From: Actinobacteria bacterium IMCC26077
GTDB taxonomy: Bacteria; Actinomycetota; Actinomycetes; Nanopelagicales; Nanopelagicaceae
Length of the DNA stretch: 64,000 nt
NCBI GenBank assembly: GCA_002284915.1
Contig: CP015606.1
Span: forward strand, 1,240,001-1,304,000
Direction: 5' to 3'
A program made the translations under genes and the position numbers. Shown piece after piece: positions 1-42,216 of the stretch (within the stretch, counting starts at the first letter, position 1; the number at the start of each line of letters is the position of its first letter). A model generated the notes under the pieces. The model saw only the letters and a list, made by a program, of their open reading frames with translations. It searched no databases and was not told where the DNA came from.

Positions 1-3000
1 CGCTTTTGGTGAGTAACGATGATGAGTTGGGAATCGGCGCGAAGTTCGGCAAGAACTTCGAGCAAGCGCCCCAAATTCACGTCATCGAGAGCTGCTTCTA
101 CCTCATCGAGGACATAGAAAGGACTTGGTCGCGCCTTGAAAATCGCTACCAAGAGCGCAACGGCAGTCAGTGATCGCTCACCACCGGAGAGCAAGGAAAG
201 GCGCTTGACCCGTTTTCCAGGTGGACGGGCTTCGACATCGACTCCGGTGGTCAACCAATCCTCAGGATTGGTGAGCAAGAGACGTCCATCGCCGCCAGGG
301 AAGAGCCTTGGGAAGATCTCTGCGAAGGCCTTTGCCGTATCGCGATACGCCTCTTTAAAAATAGTCTCCACTCGTTCGTCGACCTCGCGGACGATTTCGA
401 GAAGATCACGTCTGGTGTTCTTGAGATCCTCTAACTGATCTGCCAGATACTTCGATCTCTCCTCAAGTGCCGAAAATTCTTCGAGTGCGAGCGGGTTAAT
501 CTTGCCAAGCAGTGCGAGCGAACGTTCAGCAGCGGCCAATCGTTTCTCTTGTTGATCGCGGCGATAAGGAATCACTTCGGTCGAGATGACTTGCCCCTCA
601 TCATCAAGGATGAAAGTGGGCACATCGTTGGTAGGCCCGTACTCTGCCACGAGCGTCTGAGTATCGATTCCGAATTCGGTGCTGACTTTCTCTTCGAGCT
701 GTTCCATTCGAAGTCGCTGCTCGGCTCTAGCGATCTCGTCTTTATGAACGCTATCGGTCAACTGCTCCATCTCTGCGGTGAGCTCTCGACTCTTTCCACG
801 GACTGCGAGAATTTCACCTTCACGTTCCGTGCGAGCCGCCTCTAACGCATTTCGCTCGGCAAGGGCGCTATTTATCGATACTTCAATTTGAATCAACGCG
901 TCATAAGCAATCTCCGCAAGCTTTTGAGCGACGATTGCGGCGCTTGCTCGCGCCTCACGTTTAGTAATCGCCCGTACCCGTGAATCGCGTTCATTCTGCG
1001 CACCCCGTTCGAGCGCGCTCGCGCGCTCTGCCATGGCATTGACTCGTTCTTCACCAGTGCGCAACGTCAGACGCGCTTCCATCTCAACTGTTCGAGCTAA
1101 CGAGACGCGCTCACGCATGGGATCGATATCAAAGGAGCGCACATCAACTGAAGGAGTGATAGTCGCCGGCGTACTCTCTAGCTGCGCAAGCTCGCGTCGG
1201 TGGGTTGCGAGCAATTCGTTCGCTTCCGCTATCGACATCGTCAATCGATCAGCCTCCGCCTGGGCTGCCGAGCGAGTCTGACTAAATACTGCAATCTGTT
1301 CGGCCAAGGCCGCCATTCGGGCATCCGACTCATTAAGAGCCGCAACTAATCGATCCAACTCGCCCCGCTCGAGATTGACCTTTTCGAGCGCTTGCGAAAT
1401 CTCAAAACGAAGTCGTTCACCTTCATGAGTGAGTTCGCCAAGCTTCCGTTCGCTGATTTCGATCGCTGCATTGAGCTCAACGATGCTCGAGTCGCGCTTG
1501 GAACCTCCGCTGACTAAGTCGCGCCCCAAAACGTCGCCATCTTTAGTGACTACTCGAATCGTCGGATACTGCTGCAGAAGTGCGTGGGCAACATTGAGCG
1601 ATTCAGCAACGACCGTATTTCCCAAAATATGGGCGAGCGGTCGCTGCAATTGCGAGGTTTTAATCACATCTATTGCTCGATAGGCCCCTTGAGGCAATTG
1701 CTGATTGAAGATTGGTCCCTGGACATCATTGCCACCGATGACAACAATCTCGGCTCGGCCAGCGTTCTCACGTTTGAGCAGCGTGAGCGCATCGAGCGCA
1801 TCGGAGAGTCGACCTACGACCACTCCATCTGCCAACGTACCTAAAGCGGCGCTAATTGCCGCATCCCAACCGCTGGCAACTTCCATCAACGAGGCGAGCG
1901 TTCCGAGAACTGGAACCTCATTGCGCGCGGCGAGAAGTAAGGCGCTGCCATCTCGTGATGCGACGGAGAGTTTGAGCGCTTCGACCCGCGCTTGCGTTGA
2001 TGAACGTTCGCGTTCAACCGACCGTTCCCGATCCCGAAGGCTCTCTAACATCGCGTTCGCTGAATCGAGCGCCGCTTTCCGAGTTTGATAATCAGAGTCA
2101 AGCTTCTCTTCGCCCGCTCCGTGCCCAGCAATCTCTGCCTCTTTAGCAGCAAATTGTTGTTGCGCCTGCGCCGTCCTATTTAACGCATCATCGCGATTTC
2201 GAGTCAAACGCTCAATCTCAGATTCACCTGCCTGAATCCTCGATTTCAGGGAATTAATCTCACCTTCACGACGAGCATTTCCCTCACGTACATCTGCAGC
2301 TGCCTGAAGCGCCTGCGCTAATTCATTCTCGCGCGCCTTCAATTCAGCTTCGGCTTGCGCAACGGCTGCACTTGCATCGTGGAGCGAGCGCTCTTGGATT
2401 GCTAGCGAACTTCGAAGCTCGCTTTCTTGGGCGCGAATCCCGTGCGCCTCGCGTTCGAGCGCATCTGGATCAACCGTCGACGAAAGCACCTCCTCAGAAT
2501 CTGAGAGATATCGGGCGCGTTCGCTCGCCAAATTAGCGCTGCCACGGAACCGTTCGCGAAGTGAATTGAGTTGATAGAAAGTATCTTGCGCTTTGGTCAG
2601 AATTGGCGCTTGTGAAAAGGTGAGTTGCTCTAGCTCGCTCTCGCGGGCACGAACGCTTTCGAGCTCGCGTTCAACCTCATTCCGTCTGGCGCGAAGGGCA
2701 TTTTCATCGGCAACTTCAATGGTGAAATTCTCTTTGAGTTGCATCAAGTCATCGGCATAGAGACGTAATTTCGCATCGCGTACATCGGCCTGGATCGTCG
2801 CTGCTTTCTTCGCTACTTCAGCTTGCTTTCCAAGGGGCTTTAACTGTCGCCGCAGTTCGGTGAGGAGGTCTTGGATGCGCGCGAAGTTTGCTTGCATCGC
2901 CTCAAGCTTGCGCAGCGCCTTCTCTTTTCGCTTCCGATGTTTCAGGATTCCGGATGCCTCTTCGATAAATGCTCGTCGCTCCTCCGGGTTCGCCGAGAGA

Positions 3001-3446
3001 ATCGAATCGAGTTGGCCTTGTCCGACCACCACATGCATCTCTCGACCAATGCCACTGTCACTGAGCAACTCTTGGATATCTAGAAGACGTGATGTCTCGC
3101 CATTGATCTGATATTCACTTGTGCCATTGCGAAAGAGAATTCTCGAGATGGTTACTTCGGAGAATTCGATTGGGAGCGCACCATCACTGTTATCGATCGT
3201 CACCGAAACCTCGGCTCGACCTAGAGGCGCTCTTCCTGTTGTGCCGGCGAAGATGACATCTTCCATCTTGCCGCCACGAAGACTCTTCGCACCCTGCTCT
3301 CCCATTACCCAGGTGAGGGCGTCGATGATGTTTGATTTTCCCGATCCATTGGGGCCAACGACGCAGGTGATTCCTGGCTCAAAGCGGAGGGTCGTGGCGG
3401 AAGCGAAGGATTTAAACCCTTTCAAGGTCAACGCCTTGAGATACAT
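1..3446 (-). CDS. smc: Chromosome segregation ATPase SMC (3' end cut by window edge)
   Basis: Structural maintenance of chromosomes protein, the ATPase of condensin, which compacts and segregates the nucleoid. The start ATG is at 3446-3444 and gives MYLKALTLKGFKSF, the usual SMC opening, with a GGGGG ribosome site eight bases upstream. The N-terminal ATP-binding head has Walker A GPNGSGKSN (near 3332-3358). Long Ala/Glu/Arg-rich coiled coils follow, with a hinge-like Gly-rich middle around 1480-1960. The second half of the head has the ABC signature LLSGGERS (near 173-196) and Walker B YVLDEVEAALDD (near 85-120). The frame runs open to base 1, so only the last residues are missing. It lies 52 bases downstream of mutM, as in the actinobacterial rnc-mutM-smc order. 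Identification is secure. Confidence 0.96.
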   Translation of the reverse strand, partial: MYLKALTLKGFKSFASATTLRFEPGITCVVGPNGSGKSNIIDALTWVMGEQGAKSLRGGKMEDVIFAGTTGRAPLGRAEVSVTIDNSDGALPIEFSEVTISRILFRNGTSEYQINGETSRLLDIQELLSDSGIGREMHVVVGQGQLDSILSANPEERRAFIEEASGILKHRKRKEKALRKLEAMQANFARIQDLLTELRRQLKPLGKQAEVAKKAATIQADVRDAKLRLYADDLMQLKENFTIEVADENALRARRNEVERELESVRARESELEQLTFSQAPILTKAQDTFYQLNSLRERFRGSANLASERARYLSDSEEVLSSTVDPDALEREAHGIRAQESELRSSLAIQERSLHDASAAVAQAEAELKARENELAQALQAAADVREGNARREGEINSLKSRIQAGESEIERLTRNRDDALNRTAQAQQQFAAKEAEIAGHGAGEEKLDSDYQTRKAALDSANAMLESLRDRERSVERERSSTQARVEALKLSVASRDGSALLLAARNEVPVLGTLASLMEVASGWDAAISAALGTLADGVVVGRLSDALDALTLLKRENAGRAEIVVIGGNDVQGPIFNQQLPQGAYRAIDVIKTSQLQRPLAHILGNTVVAESLNVAHALLQQYPTIRVVTKDGDVLGRDLVSGGSKRDSSIVELNAAIEISERKLGELTHEGERLRFEISQALEKVNLERGELDRLVAALNESDARMAALAEQIAVFSQTRSAAQAEADRLTMSIAEANELLATHRRELAQLESTPATITPSVDVRSFDIDPMRERVSLARTVEMEARLTLRTGEERVNAMAERASALERGAQNERDSRVRAITKREARASAAIVAQKLAEIAYDALIQIEVSINSALAERNALEAARTEREGEILAVRGKSRELTAEMEQLTDSVHKDEIARAEQRLRMEQLEEKVSTEFGIDTQTLVAEYGPTNDVPTFILDDEGQVISTEVIPYRRDQQEKRLAAAERSLALLGKINPLALEEFSALEERSKYLADQLEDLKNTRRDLLEIVREVDERVETIFKEAYRDTAKAFAEIFPRLFPGGDGRLLLTNPEDWLTTGVDVEARPPGKRVKRLSLLSGGERSLTAVALLVAIFKARPSPFYVLDEVEAALDDVNLGRLLEVLAELRADSQLIIVTHQK

Positions 3447-4389: not shown

Positions 4390-5059
4390 GTTCGTTTAAG
4401 GCGGTAAATGCCATAGTCGCTGCGATCTGCTCTGCCTCTCGCTTGCTCTTGCCTCGACCTTCGCCAAGAACTTTGCCGTACACGATGACATGCGCGACGA
4501 AGTCTTTATCGTGATCAGGGCCTGAATCAGTTACTGCATATTCAGGGACTCCCATGCTTCTTTCGGCAAGTAGCTCCTGAAGAGCCGTCTTACCATCGAG
4601 GCCAGCGCCTCGTTCCAGCGCGCTATCGATGACCGGAGAGATCAGCGGGAGGATGATGTTTTTTGTTACCTCGAAACCCTTCTCAAGGTAGAGCGCGCCA
4701 AAGAGCGCTTCGAGTGAATCGGCGAGAATCGATGCCTTCTCGCGACCGCCAGAGCTCTCTTCGCCTTTACCAATCTTGATGTGCGCACCTAAACCGAGAG
4801 CGCGGGCCACGTCGGCGAGCGCGACCGTATTGACGATTCCCGAACGCAATGGACTTAATCTGCTCTCTGGAAGATCGGGGTAGCGTTGATAGAGCTCGGC
4901 CGTAACGATTAATCCAAGAACGCTATCGCCCAAGAATTCCAAACGTTCATAGGTGGGTAAGCCACCTGATTCATAGGCGAACGAGCGGTGGGTAAGTGCG
5001 ATTTCGAGAAGTTGCTCGTTGAGCTCGGCACCGAGAGCCTGGGTGAGGTCGCGATGCAT
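4382..5059 (-). CDS. rnc: Ribonuclease III
   Basis: Double-strand-specific endoribonuclease that processes rRNA precursors and structured mRNAs. The 225-residue protein has the RNase III signature ERLEFLGDSVLGL (about residues 39-51) with the metal-binding acidic residues, and a C-terminal dsRNA-binding domain (TALQELLAERSMG to KREAEQIAATMAF). It sits between rpmF (8-base gap) and mutM (8-base overlap), the classical actinobacterial arrangement. Confidence 0.97.
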   Translation of the reverse strand: MHRDLTQALGAELNEQLLEIALTHRSFAYESGGLPTYERLEFLGDSVLGLIVTAELYQRYPDLPESRLSPLRSGIVNTVALADVARALGLGAHIKIGKGEESSGGREKASILADSLEALFGALYLEKGFEVTKNIILPLISPVIDSALERGAGLDGKTALQELLAERSMGVPEYAVTDSGPDHDKDFVAHVIVYGKVLGEGRGKSKREAEQIAATMAFTALNERA

Positions 5060-5301: not shown

Positions 5302-5844
5302 CTACTGCCCTGCCTCCTCGATTCCCGCGATATTCCGTAACTGAGCCCATCGAGGGTCAATCCGCTGGTGGTCGTGGCCGCTGGGATTTTCAGCCACCTT
5401 CTCACCGCAATCGGGGCATAAGCCAGGGCACTCCTCGGTGCAGTGCGGAGCTAATGGGAGATCCAGGATGACCGCATCGCGTATTGGTGGCAGAAGATCA
5501 ATCCGTTCTTCGGTGATCAGCTGCGGGAGTTCTTCATCCTCGTCCAGGTCGGGCGGCAGAGCGTAAAAGTAGAGCTCTTGAATTGTGGCGAGAATCGGCA
5601 GCGAAATCGGATCAAGACAGCGAACACACTCTCCTGTTGCCTCTGAGCGAAGGGTAAAGCTCGCCAATACCCCAGTCGATACTGATTCGACTTTTCCCTT
5701 GATGCTTAACGGCGTTTGCGGCTCAATAGCGATGACATCGATCCCAATTCGCTCTGGGTTAGGAAAACTCCGCTCAACCGCGAGCATCTCACCAGGTTGG
5801 CGCTTGAGATCGTGGACTGAGATAAGGAAATCCGAGGTGTTCAT
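5302..5844 (-). CDS. YceD/DUF177 family protein
   Basis: A 180-residue member of the DUF177 (YceD) family, which is almost always encoded just upstream of rpmF. In plants and some bacteria the family is linked to 23S rRNA accumulation. Visible landmarks are an N-terminal beta-rich region, the CVRCLDP pair near the middle, and a Cys-rich C-terminal segment (HCTEECPGLCPDCG) that resembles a zinc site. It is encoded 12 bases after the SepIVA-like gene and 60 bases before rpmF. The family assignment is firm; the biochemical role is not known from sequence. Confidence 0.9.
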   Translation of the reverse strand: MNTSDFLISVHDLKRQPGEMLAVERSFPNPERIGIDVIAIEPQTPLSIKGKVESVSTGVLASFTLRSEATGECVRCLDPISLPILATIQELYFYALPPDLDEDEELPQLITEERIDLLPPIRDAVILDLPLAPHCTEECPGLCPDCGEKVAENPSGHDHQRIDPRWAQLRNIAGIEEAGQ

Positions 5845-38004: not shown

Positions 38005-40479
38005 TTACTCTTGGATAACTATATTGACAAGCTTCGGCGCGCGCGCGATGACTTTCACAACCTTCTTACCTGCTAATACTTCTCGAATCGCAGGTTCTGC
38101 CAGTGCGATTTCCTCAAATTGTGCATCGGTAATCTCGGGGTCAATCTCAATTCGCGCTTTTATCTTGCCATTAATTTGAACTACGGCAGTCACGCTCTCT
38201 GCTTTGACTAATTCTGGATTCACATTTGGCCACCCCGCGAGTGCAACGCTTGGTTGATGGCCAAGTCGCTCCCACATCTCCTCTGCAGTAAAGGGGGCAA
38301 CGAGCGAGAGCATAATCGCGACGGCTTCAGCGGCTTCGCGCACCGCTGGGTCTGCAGCGCCACATCCACTATCAATCGCCTTTCGCGTTGCATTGACTAG
38401 CTCCATCATTCGTGCGACCGCAACATTGAATCTAAATGACTCAACAGCGAATGCGCCATCATGAAGCGCTTTATGTGTTACTCGTCGGAGCGAGAGATCG
38501 CCGGTTGCGAAATCAACTCCAGGTTGTGAAGTGACATCACCAGCTAGACGCCAGGCTCGGGAGAGGAATTTGACCGATCCCGATGGCGAGACATCAGCCC
38601 AATCAACATCATCTTCTGGAGGTCCTGCAAAGACCATCGTCAATCGGATTGCATCAACGCCATGATTGGCTAACTCGTCGGAGAGACGGACCAAGTTCCC
38701 ACGGCTCTTGCTCATCGCCGATCCATCCATGACGACCATCCCCTGATTGAGTAAGCGGGTAAATGGTTCGGTGAAATCTAGAAGTCCCATGTCATGGAGC
38801 GCCTTGGTAAAAAATCGGCTGTAAAGCAGGTGCAAGATGGCGTGGGTTACCCCACCGACATATTGATCTACAGGTAGCCAGGTTTTTACATCAGCTTCGT
38901 TGAACGCGCGCGCACTCTCATGAGGACTTGCATACCGTAAGAAATACCACGAGGAATCTACGAAGGTATCCATCGTGTCTGCATCGCGTTGAGCTACTGC
39001 CCCACAACGTGGGCACGGAACATTGATCCAATCCGTCGCAGCTCCTAACGGAGATTTCCCCTTAGGAGATAGATCAAGACTTCCAGCTGGAGGGAGTTTT
39101 ACAGGGAGTTCGCTCTCAGGGACGGGAACTTCGCCGCACTTCTCACAATGCACGATGGGGATTGGGGTGCCCCAGTATCTCTGACGAGAGATGAGCCAAT
39201 CACGAAGTCGATAATTTCGCGCTGCTTTACCTAGTCCATCGCGCTCAAGTTGCTTGATGATGCTTGCGATTGCGCCCTCTTTATTCATTCCGTTCAGTGG
39301 GCCCGAGTTGATGAGCGTGCCATCGCCACTGGTTGCGATTCCAGTCGAAGCTGGATCCTCTTCACTCGTCTCCACAACAACTCGCACTGGAAGCTTCATT
39401 GCCATCGCGAAATCTAAGTCACGTTGGTCATGCGCCGGCACGGCCATGATTGCACCAGTGCCATAGTCAGCAAGCACATAATCACTCGCCCAGATCGGCA
39501 ATTTCTCTCCATTGACTGGATTGATAGCGAAGCGCTCCAAAAAGATGCCAGTTTTTGGTCGATCCGTTGCGAGTCGATCGATATCGCTAGCGGACTTCAC
39601 GCTTTCAAGATATTCATGGAATCGGCGTGCAACATCGGGCGTGCTCGATGATGCTAATTCCTCGGCTAATGGACTATCTGCAGCAACAACGAAGAAGGTG
39701 GCGCCAAAGAGCGTGTCTGGGCGGGTGGTATAGATAGTCACTGGATCGCTCTTGCCCTCGATGACGAATTGGACATTTGCGCCGGTAGAGCGTCCAATCC
39801 AATTTCGTTGCATCGTCAGGACTTTCTCTGGCCACTTACCTTCGAGCTGTGCCATGTCATCAAGGAGACGATCGGCATACTCAGTGATTTTGAAGTACCA
39901 CTGGTTTAATTTCTTCTTCGTTACTTGAGTGTCACATCGCTCGCAAAGTCCTGCGACTACCTGCTCGTTAGCAAGAACAGTCTGGCAACTTGGACACCAA
40001 TTGACGGCAAAATCCTTTCGGTATGCCAATCCGTTCTCATATAGTTTGAGGAAGATCCATTGATTCCACTTGTAGTACTCGGGATCACAGGTGTTAAAAG
40101 TACGATCCCAATCGAATGAACATGCAAATCTACGCATCGATGCCTTTTGGACTGCGATGTTCTCGTATGTCCACGCTGCTGGATCGACGCCACGTTTAAT
40201 CGCCGCATTCTCCGCCGGTAACCCAAATGCATCCCAGCCAATCGGGTGCATCACGTTGAAACCCTTTTGCACCCAATATCGAGCGATCACATCGCCGAGC
40301 GCGTACGCCTCGGCATGGCCCATATGTAGGTCGCCCGATGGGTAGGGAAACATATCTAAGACATATTTCTTGGGGCGATTATCGTCGGGGCGACCAGAGC
40401 GGAAGGGAGCAATCTCGTCCCACACGGGCAGCCATTTCTCCTGGACTGCCTGGATGTCGTAGCTATCTCGCTCCTGCAT
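38005..40479 (-). CDS. leuS: Leucyl-tRNA synthetase
   Basis: Class I synthetase with editing domain. The 824-residue protein has [21 protein letters not shown] (HIGH variant HMGH), the CP1 editing domain ([34 protein letters not shown]), zinc-type cysteines in [10 protein letters not shown] and CPRCGAV, and the KMSKS-like MSKSRGN. The ATG is 6 bases after TACCCT. Complete and normal. Confidence 0.97.
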
Positions 40480-40510: not shown

Positions 40511-41464
40511 TTAACTCCAGGATGAGCCGGTCAGTTCGCAGCTAATGTCCCAAAGTCGCTCAGCCAATGATTGATCATAAGCGGCGCTACTTGCACGGGT
40601 GAGTTTGGGGTAACCCCGCATCTCCAAGAATCCATCAGGTCCGAGATAACTTCCACTCGGCAGCTCTGGAAAAGTTGCGGCACAGAGAATCGGAAGCGCA
40701 CCCTGCTTCGCGCTCTGCGCAAAGAGCGTGTTCACAACATTACTGCCGCGCTCCATGAGTGGTTGGTTCTTCATCTGGGCGCCAACAGCTTGCAAGTTTG
40801 TCGCCGACCAACCTGGGTGCGCTGCCATCGGTTCGATTCGCTTACCACCCGGCAACTTGCCCTGCGAAGATAACCGATGTAGTTGGAGTGTGAAAAGTAA
40901 ATTGGCGAGCTTGCTCCGTCCATAAGCGCTCCAGGGTTGATATTCCCCTCGACCTAAACATTGATCGATAATCTTCTCAGCTTGAAAAGAACCCATTCGA
41001 TGTGCCTGGCTAGACACGTTGACTAGTCGCGCGCCCTCCGTAAGCAGCGGGAAGAGCGCAGCTGCAAATGCAAAATGACCTAGATGATTAGTGCCCATTT
41101 GTAATTCAAATCCATCTTCAGTGTGTCGCAATGGAGTTGCCATGACTCCTGCGTTGAGAATCAAAATATCAATCGCCTGAGAGCGCTCTATCAATGTTGT
41201 TGCTGCGCTCTTAACGCTCTTAAGGCTCGTTAGATCAAGAGGAAGGAGGTCGATAGATCCCGATGCACCTACTTTGAGCTGTGGGATAAGCGCTGAAGTC
41301 TTTTCAAGATTACGAACAGCCATCGTGACATCTGCACCTGCTGCAACACAGGCGCGGGCAACTTCGAGACCAAGACCACTGCTTGCGCCAGTGACTACAA
41401 CATGTTTGCCGACTAATGATGGAGGCTTTCGCCATTGTTTGGGAATTGTCGGAGGAGTTGCCAC
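40511..41464 (-). CDS. Short-chain dehydrogenase/reductase
   Basis: NAD(P)-dependent oxidoreductase of 317 residues with the Rossmann VVVTGASSGLGLEVARA, LNAGVMATP and catalytic YGRSKLANLL (YxxxK), resembling retinol-dehydrogenase/WWOX-like SDRs common in actinobacteria. The GTG at 41464 is the only usable start before the Rossmann motif. It begins two bases after the mature 3' base of tRNA-Ala, leaving no room for a promoter or leader. Substrate unknown. Confidence 0.88.
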   Translation of the reverse strand: MATPPTIPKQWRKPPSLVGKHVVVTGASSGLGLEVARACVAAGADVTMAVRNLEKTSALIPQLKVGASGSIDLLPLDLTSLKSVKSAATTLIERSQAIDILILNAGVMATPLRHTEDGFELQMGTNHLGHFAFAAALFPLLTEGARLVNVSSQAHRMGSFQAEKIIDQCLGRGEYQPWSAYGRSKLANLLFTLQLHRLSSQGKLPGGKRIEPMAAHPGWSATNLQAVGAQMKNQPLMERGSNVVNTLFAQSAKQGALPILCAATFPELPSGSYLGPDGFLEMRGYPKLTRASSAAYDQSLAERLWDISCELTGSSWS

Positions 41465-41465
41465 G

Positions 41466-41538
41466 TGGAGCTGAGGGGACTTGAACCCCTGACCCCCTGC
41501 ATGCCATGCAGGTGCGCTACCAGCTGCGCCACAGCCCC
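41466..41538 (-). tRNA. tRNA-Ala (anticodon GGC)
   Basis: A 73-base cloverleaf: acceptor GGGGCTG / CAGCTCC, D arm GCGCAGCTGGTAGCGC, anticodon stem CCTGC/GCAGG around ATGGCAT, T loop TTCAAGT. Discriminator A; CCA is not encoded. The base after the discriminator is C, followed directly by the GTG of the SDR gene. A TAGAGT box lies 11 bases upstream. Confidence 0.96.
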
Positions 41539-41574
41539 GAACTCGGAGAACTCTAGCGCAAACTCACGCGCTCG

Positions 41575-42216
41575 CTATTGGGAGGATTCCTGACCAAGAA
41601 TCGGCTCGGGCAGGACGCCAGAATTGTGTTCGATTAATCGCCACCGAGCGTTGCGCTCTTCAACGATCGACCACGATGCATTGGCGAGTCCACCGATCGC
41701 GACCCAATCGCTTATTGCCAATCCCAAGAGCGCACCAATTGCTCCACGCGCTGCACCACCATGTGTAACCACTAACAAAGTCTCGCCCGATTGCCGCTCA
41801 CTTAATCCGCGTTCGATAGCAGCCATCATTCTCTTGACAACGTCGCTACGTCGTTCGCCATCACCGCCTGCCGGCAAATCGTCTCCGGCAAACCAGCGCG
41901 CAAGGTTCTCGCCATCGCTCGCTTCGATATCAGGGCCAGTACGCCCCTCCCAACTGCCACAGTGGGTCTCTCGCAGTTGCGGATCTGCGACTACTTTTAA
42001 TTGTTTGACCGCGGCTACCGCAGCTGCTGTTTCGTAGGCTCGCTGGAGATCGCTTGAGATGATGTGATCGATATCTTGTGTGCTTAGAATCGATGCCGCC
42101 CGTGCAACTTGAGCGCGACCCACTGCATTGAGCGGAATATCTGTGTGGCCTTGGAATCTATTCTCAACATTCCAATCGGTTTGGCCGTGTCGCATGATGA
42201 TCAGACGCTTACTCAT
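41575..42216 (-). CDS. Histidine phosphatase (GpgP/phosphoglycerate-mutase-like)
   Basis: A 213-residue phosphatase of the RHG superfamily with the catalytic IMRHGQTDWN at residues 6-15, an R-x-x-E/E region SDLQRAYETA, and the second histidine in VVTHGGAARG. The order nadD-rsfS-this gene matches Rv2421c-Rv2420c-Rv2419c, where Rv2419c (GpgP) dephosphorylates glucosyl-3-phosphoglycerate for methylglucose polysaccharide synthesis. Whether that substrate applies here is inference; a general phosphatase is also possible. Confidence 0.88.
   Translation of the reverse strand: MSKRLIIMRHGQTDWNVENRFQGHTDIPLNAVGRAQVARAASILSTQDIDHIISSDLQRAYETAAAVAAVKQLKVVADPQLRETHCGSWEGRTGPDIEASDGENLARWFAGDDLPAGGDGERRSDVVKRMMAAIERGLSERQSGETLLVVTHGGAARGAIGALLGLAISDWVAIGGLANASWSIVEERNARWRLIEHNSGVLPEPILGQESSQ

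Follow-up and report, generated by a model that had tools for sequence, protein, structure and literature searches.

Maturation of tRNA 3′ ends probably creates leaderless mRNAs in the freshwater actinobacterium IMCC26077

Introduction

Punctuation of transcripts by tRNAs is taught as a feature of mitochondria, where the tRNAs are excised by RNase P and RNase Z (ELAC2). In the model of Montoya, Ojala and Attardi, the tRNAs adjoin protein genes, their excision is proposed to form the 5′ ends of the mRNAs, and these are leaderless or nearly so. In actinobacteria, leaderless mRNAs made directly at promoters have been described (Shell 2015, PMC4633059; S. lividans, PMC8079986), with RTG at or near the 5′ end and no Shine-Dalgarno (SD) sequence. 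RTG at +1 is necessary and sufficient for leaderless initiation in mycobacteria, and the mycobacterial data suggest that starts 2–3 nt into the transcript initiate less efficiently than those at +1 (PMC4633059). As for tRNA 3′ ends, cuts by an endonuclease between C74 and C75 are reported for Cutibacterium acnes, a species said to lack an obvious tRNase Z (PMC3848588), and those reported for Streptomyces coelicolor likewise lie between the two Cs of the encoded CCA (PMC4681348).

Actinobacteria bacterium IMCC26077 belongs to the family Nanopelagicaceae in the order Nanopelagicales (freshwater acI actinobacteria) and has a 1.55-Mb single-contig genome (99.93% complete) with short intergenic gaps. 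The acI-type lineage is among the most abundant in freshwater. Here, we analyse a window of 64,000 nt of this genome, meaning the whole stretch of DNA under study, in which a short-chain dehydrogenase/reductase (SDR) gene abuts tRNA-Ala(GGC). A preliminary description of this junction had proposed that tRNase Z cuts after the discriminator base of the tRNA and leaves an almost leaderless SDR mRNA beginning with C-GUG. Bacterial leaderless mRNAs made by tRNA processing were not found described in the literature searched, which does not prove their absence.

Results

Anatomy of the tRNA-Ala/SDR junction

The elements of the junction are given in Table 1; the minus strand reads ...CAGCTCCA-C-GTG-GCA. 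One base separates the discriminator A73 from the SDR start codon, so that the order A, C, GTG given previously is confirmed. The statement that no CCA is encoded is right for the full CCA, with the refinement that the intervening C is C74, the encoded first C of CCA. The SDR frame extends open for 33 codons into tRNA-Ala, with no ATG, GTG or TTG there, and besides the junction GTG none occurs in frame before the TGASSG (Rossmann) motif; hence the claim of a single usable start stands. An alternative SDR start further upstream within the tRNA was rejected, being absent in the window and present in some relatives only.

The SDR protein matches PF00106 (E 2.7e-26) and reaches 282.4 bits with NCBIfam PRK06197 (NF004846; cut-off 268) over residues 15–316, which places it in this subfamily. 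leuS possibly shares the SDR transcript.

Table 1. Features of the junction and related loci. Coordinates are those of the window unless a contig (C1) or locus (L) is named; tRNA position 73 is the discriminator.
Feature	Coordinates	Strand	Evidence and remarks
tRNA-Ala(GGC), positions 1–73	41466..41538	-	ARAGORN; Rfam RF00005 64.9 bits at C1:1281466-1281538; no variation in five congeneric species
tRNA-Ala(GGC) including C74	41465..41538	-	ARAGORN call
Discriminator A73	41466	-	acceptor pairing
C74, first base of CCA, encoded	41465..41465	-	ARAGORN tRNA calls, acceptor pairing; cut proposed 3′ of C74, which the tRNA would keep
SDR GTG start codon at tRNA position 75, predicted mRNA 5′ end	41462..41464	-	sole in-frame start; acceptor pairing; C-GTG in 5/5 congeners
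SDR gene, PRK06197-type oxidoreductase, 317 aa	40511..41464	-	PF00106, NF004846 above cut-off
TAGAGT, probable -10 box of tRNA-Ala promoter	41550..41555	-	inferred; inside conserved TAGAGTTC block; 11 nt before tRNA 5′ end; fits TAnnnT
Histidine-phosphatase-superfamily gene, upstream	41575..42216	-	36 nt before tRNA-Ala; PF00300 E 6.7e-56
leuS, downstream	38005..40479	-	31 nt after SDR stop; TIGR00396 964.5 bits
tRNA-Ala(GGC) to SDR	start at position 75
tRNA-Arg(TCT) to orn (oligoribonuclease)	start at position 75
tRNA-Arg(TCG) to Sbt_1 transporter	start at position 75
tRNA-Pro(GGG) to CDP-alcohol phosphatidyltransferase	start at position 75
tRNA-Leu(CAA) to ANTAR response regulator (pdtaR-like)	start at position 75
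NIF3/DUF34 gene, GTG start, directly after tRNA-Val(TAC)	L262:630-1502	-	another family of the class (f28)
Atypical tRNA-like genes	L108:3849-3923, 4526-4600, 5468-5541	-	outside the window; genome locations of all five C1 ~193–195 kb and 146.7–148.3 kb
Atypical tRNA-like genes	L112:1531-1605, 2963-3038	+	as above

Signals for transcription and translation

No terminator-like site and no sigma-70-type promoter were found in 41300–41700, and no terminator was found between tRNA-Ala and SDR; a conserved -10-like box precedes the tRNA only. The five congeneric species agree throughout the TAGAGTTC block in which this box lies. Folded by MFE, the precursor did not surpass shuffled sequences and the cloverleaf was not recovered, which makes the fold uninformative.

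Genome-wide, TAnnnT boxes peak 6–7 nt before start candidates (27/298 against about 2 expected per position), and this peak is the mark of leaderless promoters in the IMCC26077 genome. At the six tRNA-abutting genes checked, neither TAnnnT nor NAnnnT was present 3–9 nt before the start; the TAnnnT about 6–7 nt upstream that characterises promoter-made leaderless mRNAs is thus missing at 6/6 junctions. The same six genes have no SD, the GGGG in the acceptor stem of Leu(CAA) being tRNA sequence and not counted as such. The SDR falls outside the class led by an SD 5–14 nt upstream, for which the single base after A73 leaves no leader. Without box or SD at the junction, the earlier remark that there is no room for a separate promoter or ribosome site is borne out.

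These data bear on the possibility that a separate promoter within the tRNA gene yields a primary leaderless SDR mRNA. Actinobacteria often have leaderless promoters, and the TAnnnT peak reveals them in this genome too, but the box is missing at all six tRNA-abutting starts, the tRNA sequence is constrained and the conserved TAGAGT sits before the tRNA instead. We therefore regard such a promoter as very improbable.

The SDR junction in relatives

As a check, the preliminary description had suggested looking for the same junction in relatives. All congeneric species (5/5) have C-GTG exactly. In this comparison 0/74 tRNA columns vary, while codon positions 1, 2 and 3 vary at 7, 5 and 17 of the first 20 codons, respectively; because the tRNA bases are invariant and the variation in these codons is of the codon type, coding constraint begins directly after GTG.

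The gene order tRNA-Ala(GGC)-SDR is common to the Nanopelagicaceae. In the loci examined, homologs further removed from the SDR (about 40% identity) have no adjoining tRNA-Ala. For 66 family orthologs with an upstream tRNA-Ala, the SDR start follows C74 at an offset of 0 nt (n=11), 2 nt (n=7), 3 nt (n=13) or 6 nt (n=1), together 32 species, or lies at least 20 nt away (34/66), mostly with an SD-like motif in the long leader. None of the 66 starts 7–19 nt past C74. The bimodal distribution, with leaders of either SD size or leaderless size, is as expected if the RNA end is the tRNA end. A point against tRNA punctuation is that many family SDR genes start 2–3 nt after C74 and not at +1. On the maximum-likelihood SDR tree the zero-leader state requires 5 changes (branches with good support impose 4 or more of them), the long-leader state 9 (7 or more). 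Judged from this tree, the zero-leader junction arose repeatedly and independently.

The same junction at other tRNAs of the genome

ARAGORN was run on the neighbourhoods of all Rfam tRNA matches in the genome and returned 47 tRNAs, five of them atypical. C74 is encoded in all 47: 12 have CCA, 34 have C only and one has CC. Taking as a junction an RTG exactly at position 75 that opens an ORF of at least 150 aa, 5/35 CCA-less tRNAs are directly followed by a real gene (Table 1), against at most 0.1 at each of the other positions (Poisson P ~8e-8). After the CCA-encoding tRNAs there is no gene start at position 75 (0/12). Behind tRNA-Phe, an old-yellow-enzyme gene lies at +3. Since five of five congeners share the SDR junction and five of 35 CCA-less tRNAs show the exact offset, the junction is beyond chance. 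The preliminary description, by implying a single locus, had a real junction in hand but understated the scope of what is a family-wide pattern.

Two alternatives have to be weighed against these counts. In a 1.55-Mb genome with short intergenic gaps, close packing could arise without any function; packing alone does not explain the exact offset, and the P of ~8e-8 within one genome, the exact conservation in the genus and the repeated independent origins leave chance packing with very little probability. Alternatively, the ribosome might initiate at the GTG of an uncut tRNA-SDR transcript, with the folded tRNA as a structured leader and no need for processing. tRNA and mRNA are indeed co-transcribed in other bacteria. 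This would, however, leave unexplained why five unrelated tRNAs have the exact offset and why the range of 7–19 nt is empty, and tRNA maturation should cleave the transcript anyway, which makes uncut initiation improbable.

Processing enzyme and cut site

A canonical RNase Z was not found in the complete IMCC26077 contig. The best TIGR02651 match (24.6 bits) falls inside a 768-aa open frame that, by its sequence, is probably ComEC. PF12706 matched only this frame and, as we read the sequences, RNase J and a glyoxalase-II-like protein. RNase Z was therefore rejected as the tRNA 3′ enzyme, and with it the tRNase Z of the preliminary description. RNase E/G is present at 502.9 bits, and there is one enzyme of the CCA-adding type. 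In a survey of the class, only some families had RNase Z matches of full length (E below 1e-70); many sampled Actinomycetes families lack a detectable full-length canonical enzyme. Because it is undetectable there, tRNA 3′ processing in such Actinomycetes would rest on another enzyme.

Actinomycete tRNA genes without CCA keep C74, as do all tRNAs sampled from three outgroup genomes (loci L164-L193). Going by these genes, C74 is a partial CCA kept class-wide. It was rejected as a marker of RNase Z-less genomes, as the outgroup genome G136 has both RNase Z and encoded C74. Being class-wide and found in an RNase Z-bearing genome, C74 alone neither names the enzyme nor proves the cut position.

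The cut may fall between A73 and C74, by tRNase Z as in the preliminary description or by RNase E 5′ of the cytidine, in which case the mRNA would begin with C-GUG. In other systems RNase Z cleaves 3′ of the discriminator (PMC10673834), and mycobacterial RNase E cleaves immediately 5′ of cytidines (PMC10641625), with RNase E/G available in this genome. On the other hand, the published actinobacterial cuts in CCA tRNAs fall after C74 (PMC3848588, PMC4681348), the -2 base is C72 and not the purine of the RN↓CNU motif, and position 75, where the starts pile up, would be +2 instead of +1. This alternative is therefore possible but doubtful. A cut after C74 is more likely than one after the discriminator, contrary to the preliminary description. 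As every tRNA encodes C74 and the published cuts lie after it, the SDR mRNA probably begins exactly at GUG. Such a cut would explain the constant encoding of C74 and sets RTG at +1.

Junctions across the family and beyond

Scanning of 61 family genomes with a DNA pattern gave 273 matches against 168 in the reversed control, and is thus noisy; class-wide counting was swamped by matches in GC-rich coding sequence. Many of the family matches were confirmed by ARAGORN on the loci, including the Leu(CAA)-pdtaR junction in further family genomes. Additional pairs identified with ARAGORN and Pfam are Leu(CAG)-GDPD, Met(CAT)-homocysteine methyltransferase, Asn-ACT protein and Ala(TGC)-cyclophilin.

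In some members of the family (loci L265, L213 and L272), the gene directly after tRNA-Met(CAT) encodes the homocysteine S-methyltransferase (PF02574). Maturation of a methionine tRNA would here release the message for an enzyme that makes methionine. The Val(TAC)-NIF3 junction of the unrelated family f28 (Table 1) is apparently an independent case.

Punctuated pdtaR as a class-wide arrangement was rejected, the homologs outside the family being mostly without an adjoining tRNA. Read by eye, several of them have TAnnnT, 6 nt and RTG, and locus L247 has tRNA-Leu(CAA) 67 nt upstream with a TAnnnT box in between. These homologs suggest a route by which a leaderless gene 3′ of a tRNA may have shed spacer and promoter and then lived on the processed end.

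Atypical tRNA-like genes

Some of the five atypical tRNA-like genes have unusually large anticodon loops. Behind every one of the five lies a terminator-like hairpin, the loop of which holds a perfect 6–7 nt reverse complement of the gene's own anticodon loop. The pairs (anticodon loop/hairpin loop) are TAACGA/TCGTTA, TCACGA/TCGTGA, TAACGAA/TTCGTTA, CGACTAA/TTAGTCG and TGGCTAA/TTAGCCA. Because the matches change in step between copies, they suggest a kissing interaction of the two loops. We know of no family with a hairpin loop complementary to its own anticodon loop.

Discussion

We consider it quite probable that tRNA 3′ maturation creates leaderless mRNAs in IMCC26077, that of the SDR included. 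This reading is supported by the genus-exact junction, by four other tRNAs with the same arrangement, by the repeated origins and by the absence of promoter and SD. The comparisons thus favour the earlier idea that tRNA 3′ maturation forms the 5′ end of a near-leaderless SDR mRNA, although its proposed start, C-GUG, is probably off by one and GUG is preferred.

From the arrangement of the genes we infer a cut, its exact site and type of enzyme, translation of the cut product and a coupling of SDR to tRNA-Ala transcription. Transcription would start from the promoter of tRNA-Ala, or from a site still further upstream, and read through tRNA-Ala into SDR. An endonuclease, most likely other than canonical RNase Z, would cut just 3′ of the encoded C74. 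This would free a tRNA ending in C74, to be finished by the CCA-adding enzyme, together with an SDR mRNA whose 5′ end coincides with the start codon GUG or lies no more than a single base ahead of this codon. The latter would be translated in the manner of actinobacterial leaderless mRNAs.

For a wider proposal the balance is even: that the family, having no detectable canonical RNase Z, uses another endonuclease cutting after C74, and that start codons were repeatedly placed there, rendering housekeeping mRNAs leaderless and tying their output to tRNA synthesis. If true, processing of stable RNA can form mRNA 5′ ends in bacteria, in an abundant freshwater lineage, and tRNA synthesis is linked to how much is made of particular enzymes, among them a 3′ exonuclease (orn) and one for the synthesis of membrane lipids. 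The junctions also offer a handle on which enzyme forms tRNA 3′ ends in RNase Z-less actinobacteria, since the start codon, by its place at the tRNA end, predicts with single-base precision where the cut falls.

Comparison with known systems

RNA cleavage also yields leaderless mRNAs in E. coli, where the agent is MazF (cited in PMC3848588); this is a stress toxin cutting its own motif, whereas the IMCC26077 case would be constitutive tRNA maturation. The promoter-made leaderless mRNAs of actinobacteria share with the SDR the RTG at or near the 5′ end and the missing SD, but their 5′ ends come from initiation and not, as proposed here, from RNA processing. C. acnes and S. coelicolor are likewise Actinobacteria, with cleavage after C74 as proposed here, and C. 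acnes is without an obvious tRNase Z; the passages of the respective papers considered here map tRNA cuts and do not link them to mRNA starts (PMC3848588, PMC4681348).

The mitochondrial arrangement of a tRNA abutting a gene with almost no leader is found in IMCC26077, where C74 is followed by GTG and five genes lie at offset 0. The mitochondrial 3′ cut by RNase Z has no counterpart, as the genome holds no canonical RNase Z. Furthermore, IMCC26077 is a free-living bacterium in which few genes are so arranged and promoters are otherwise ordinary, and its genes start after C74, whereas the mitochondrial ones start after the discriminator.
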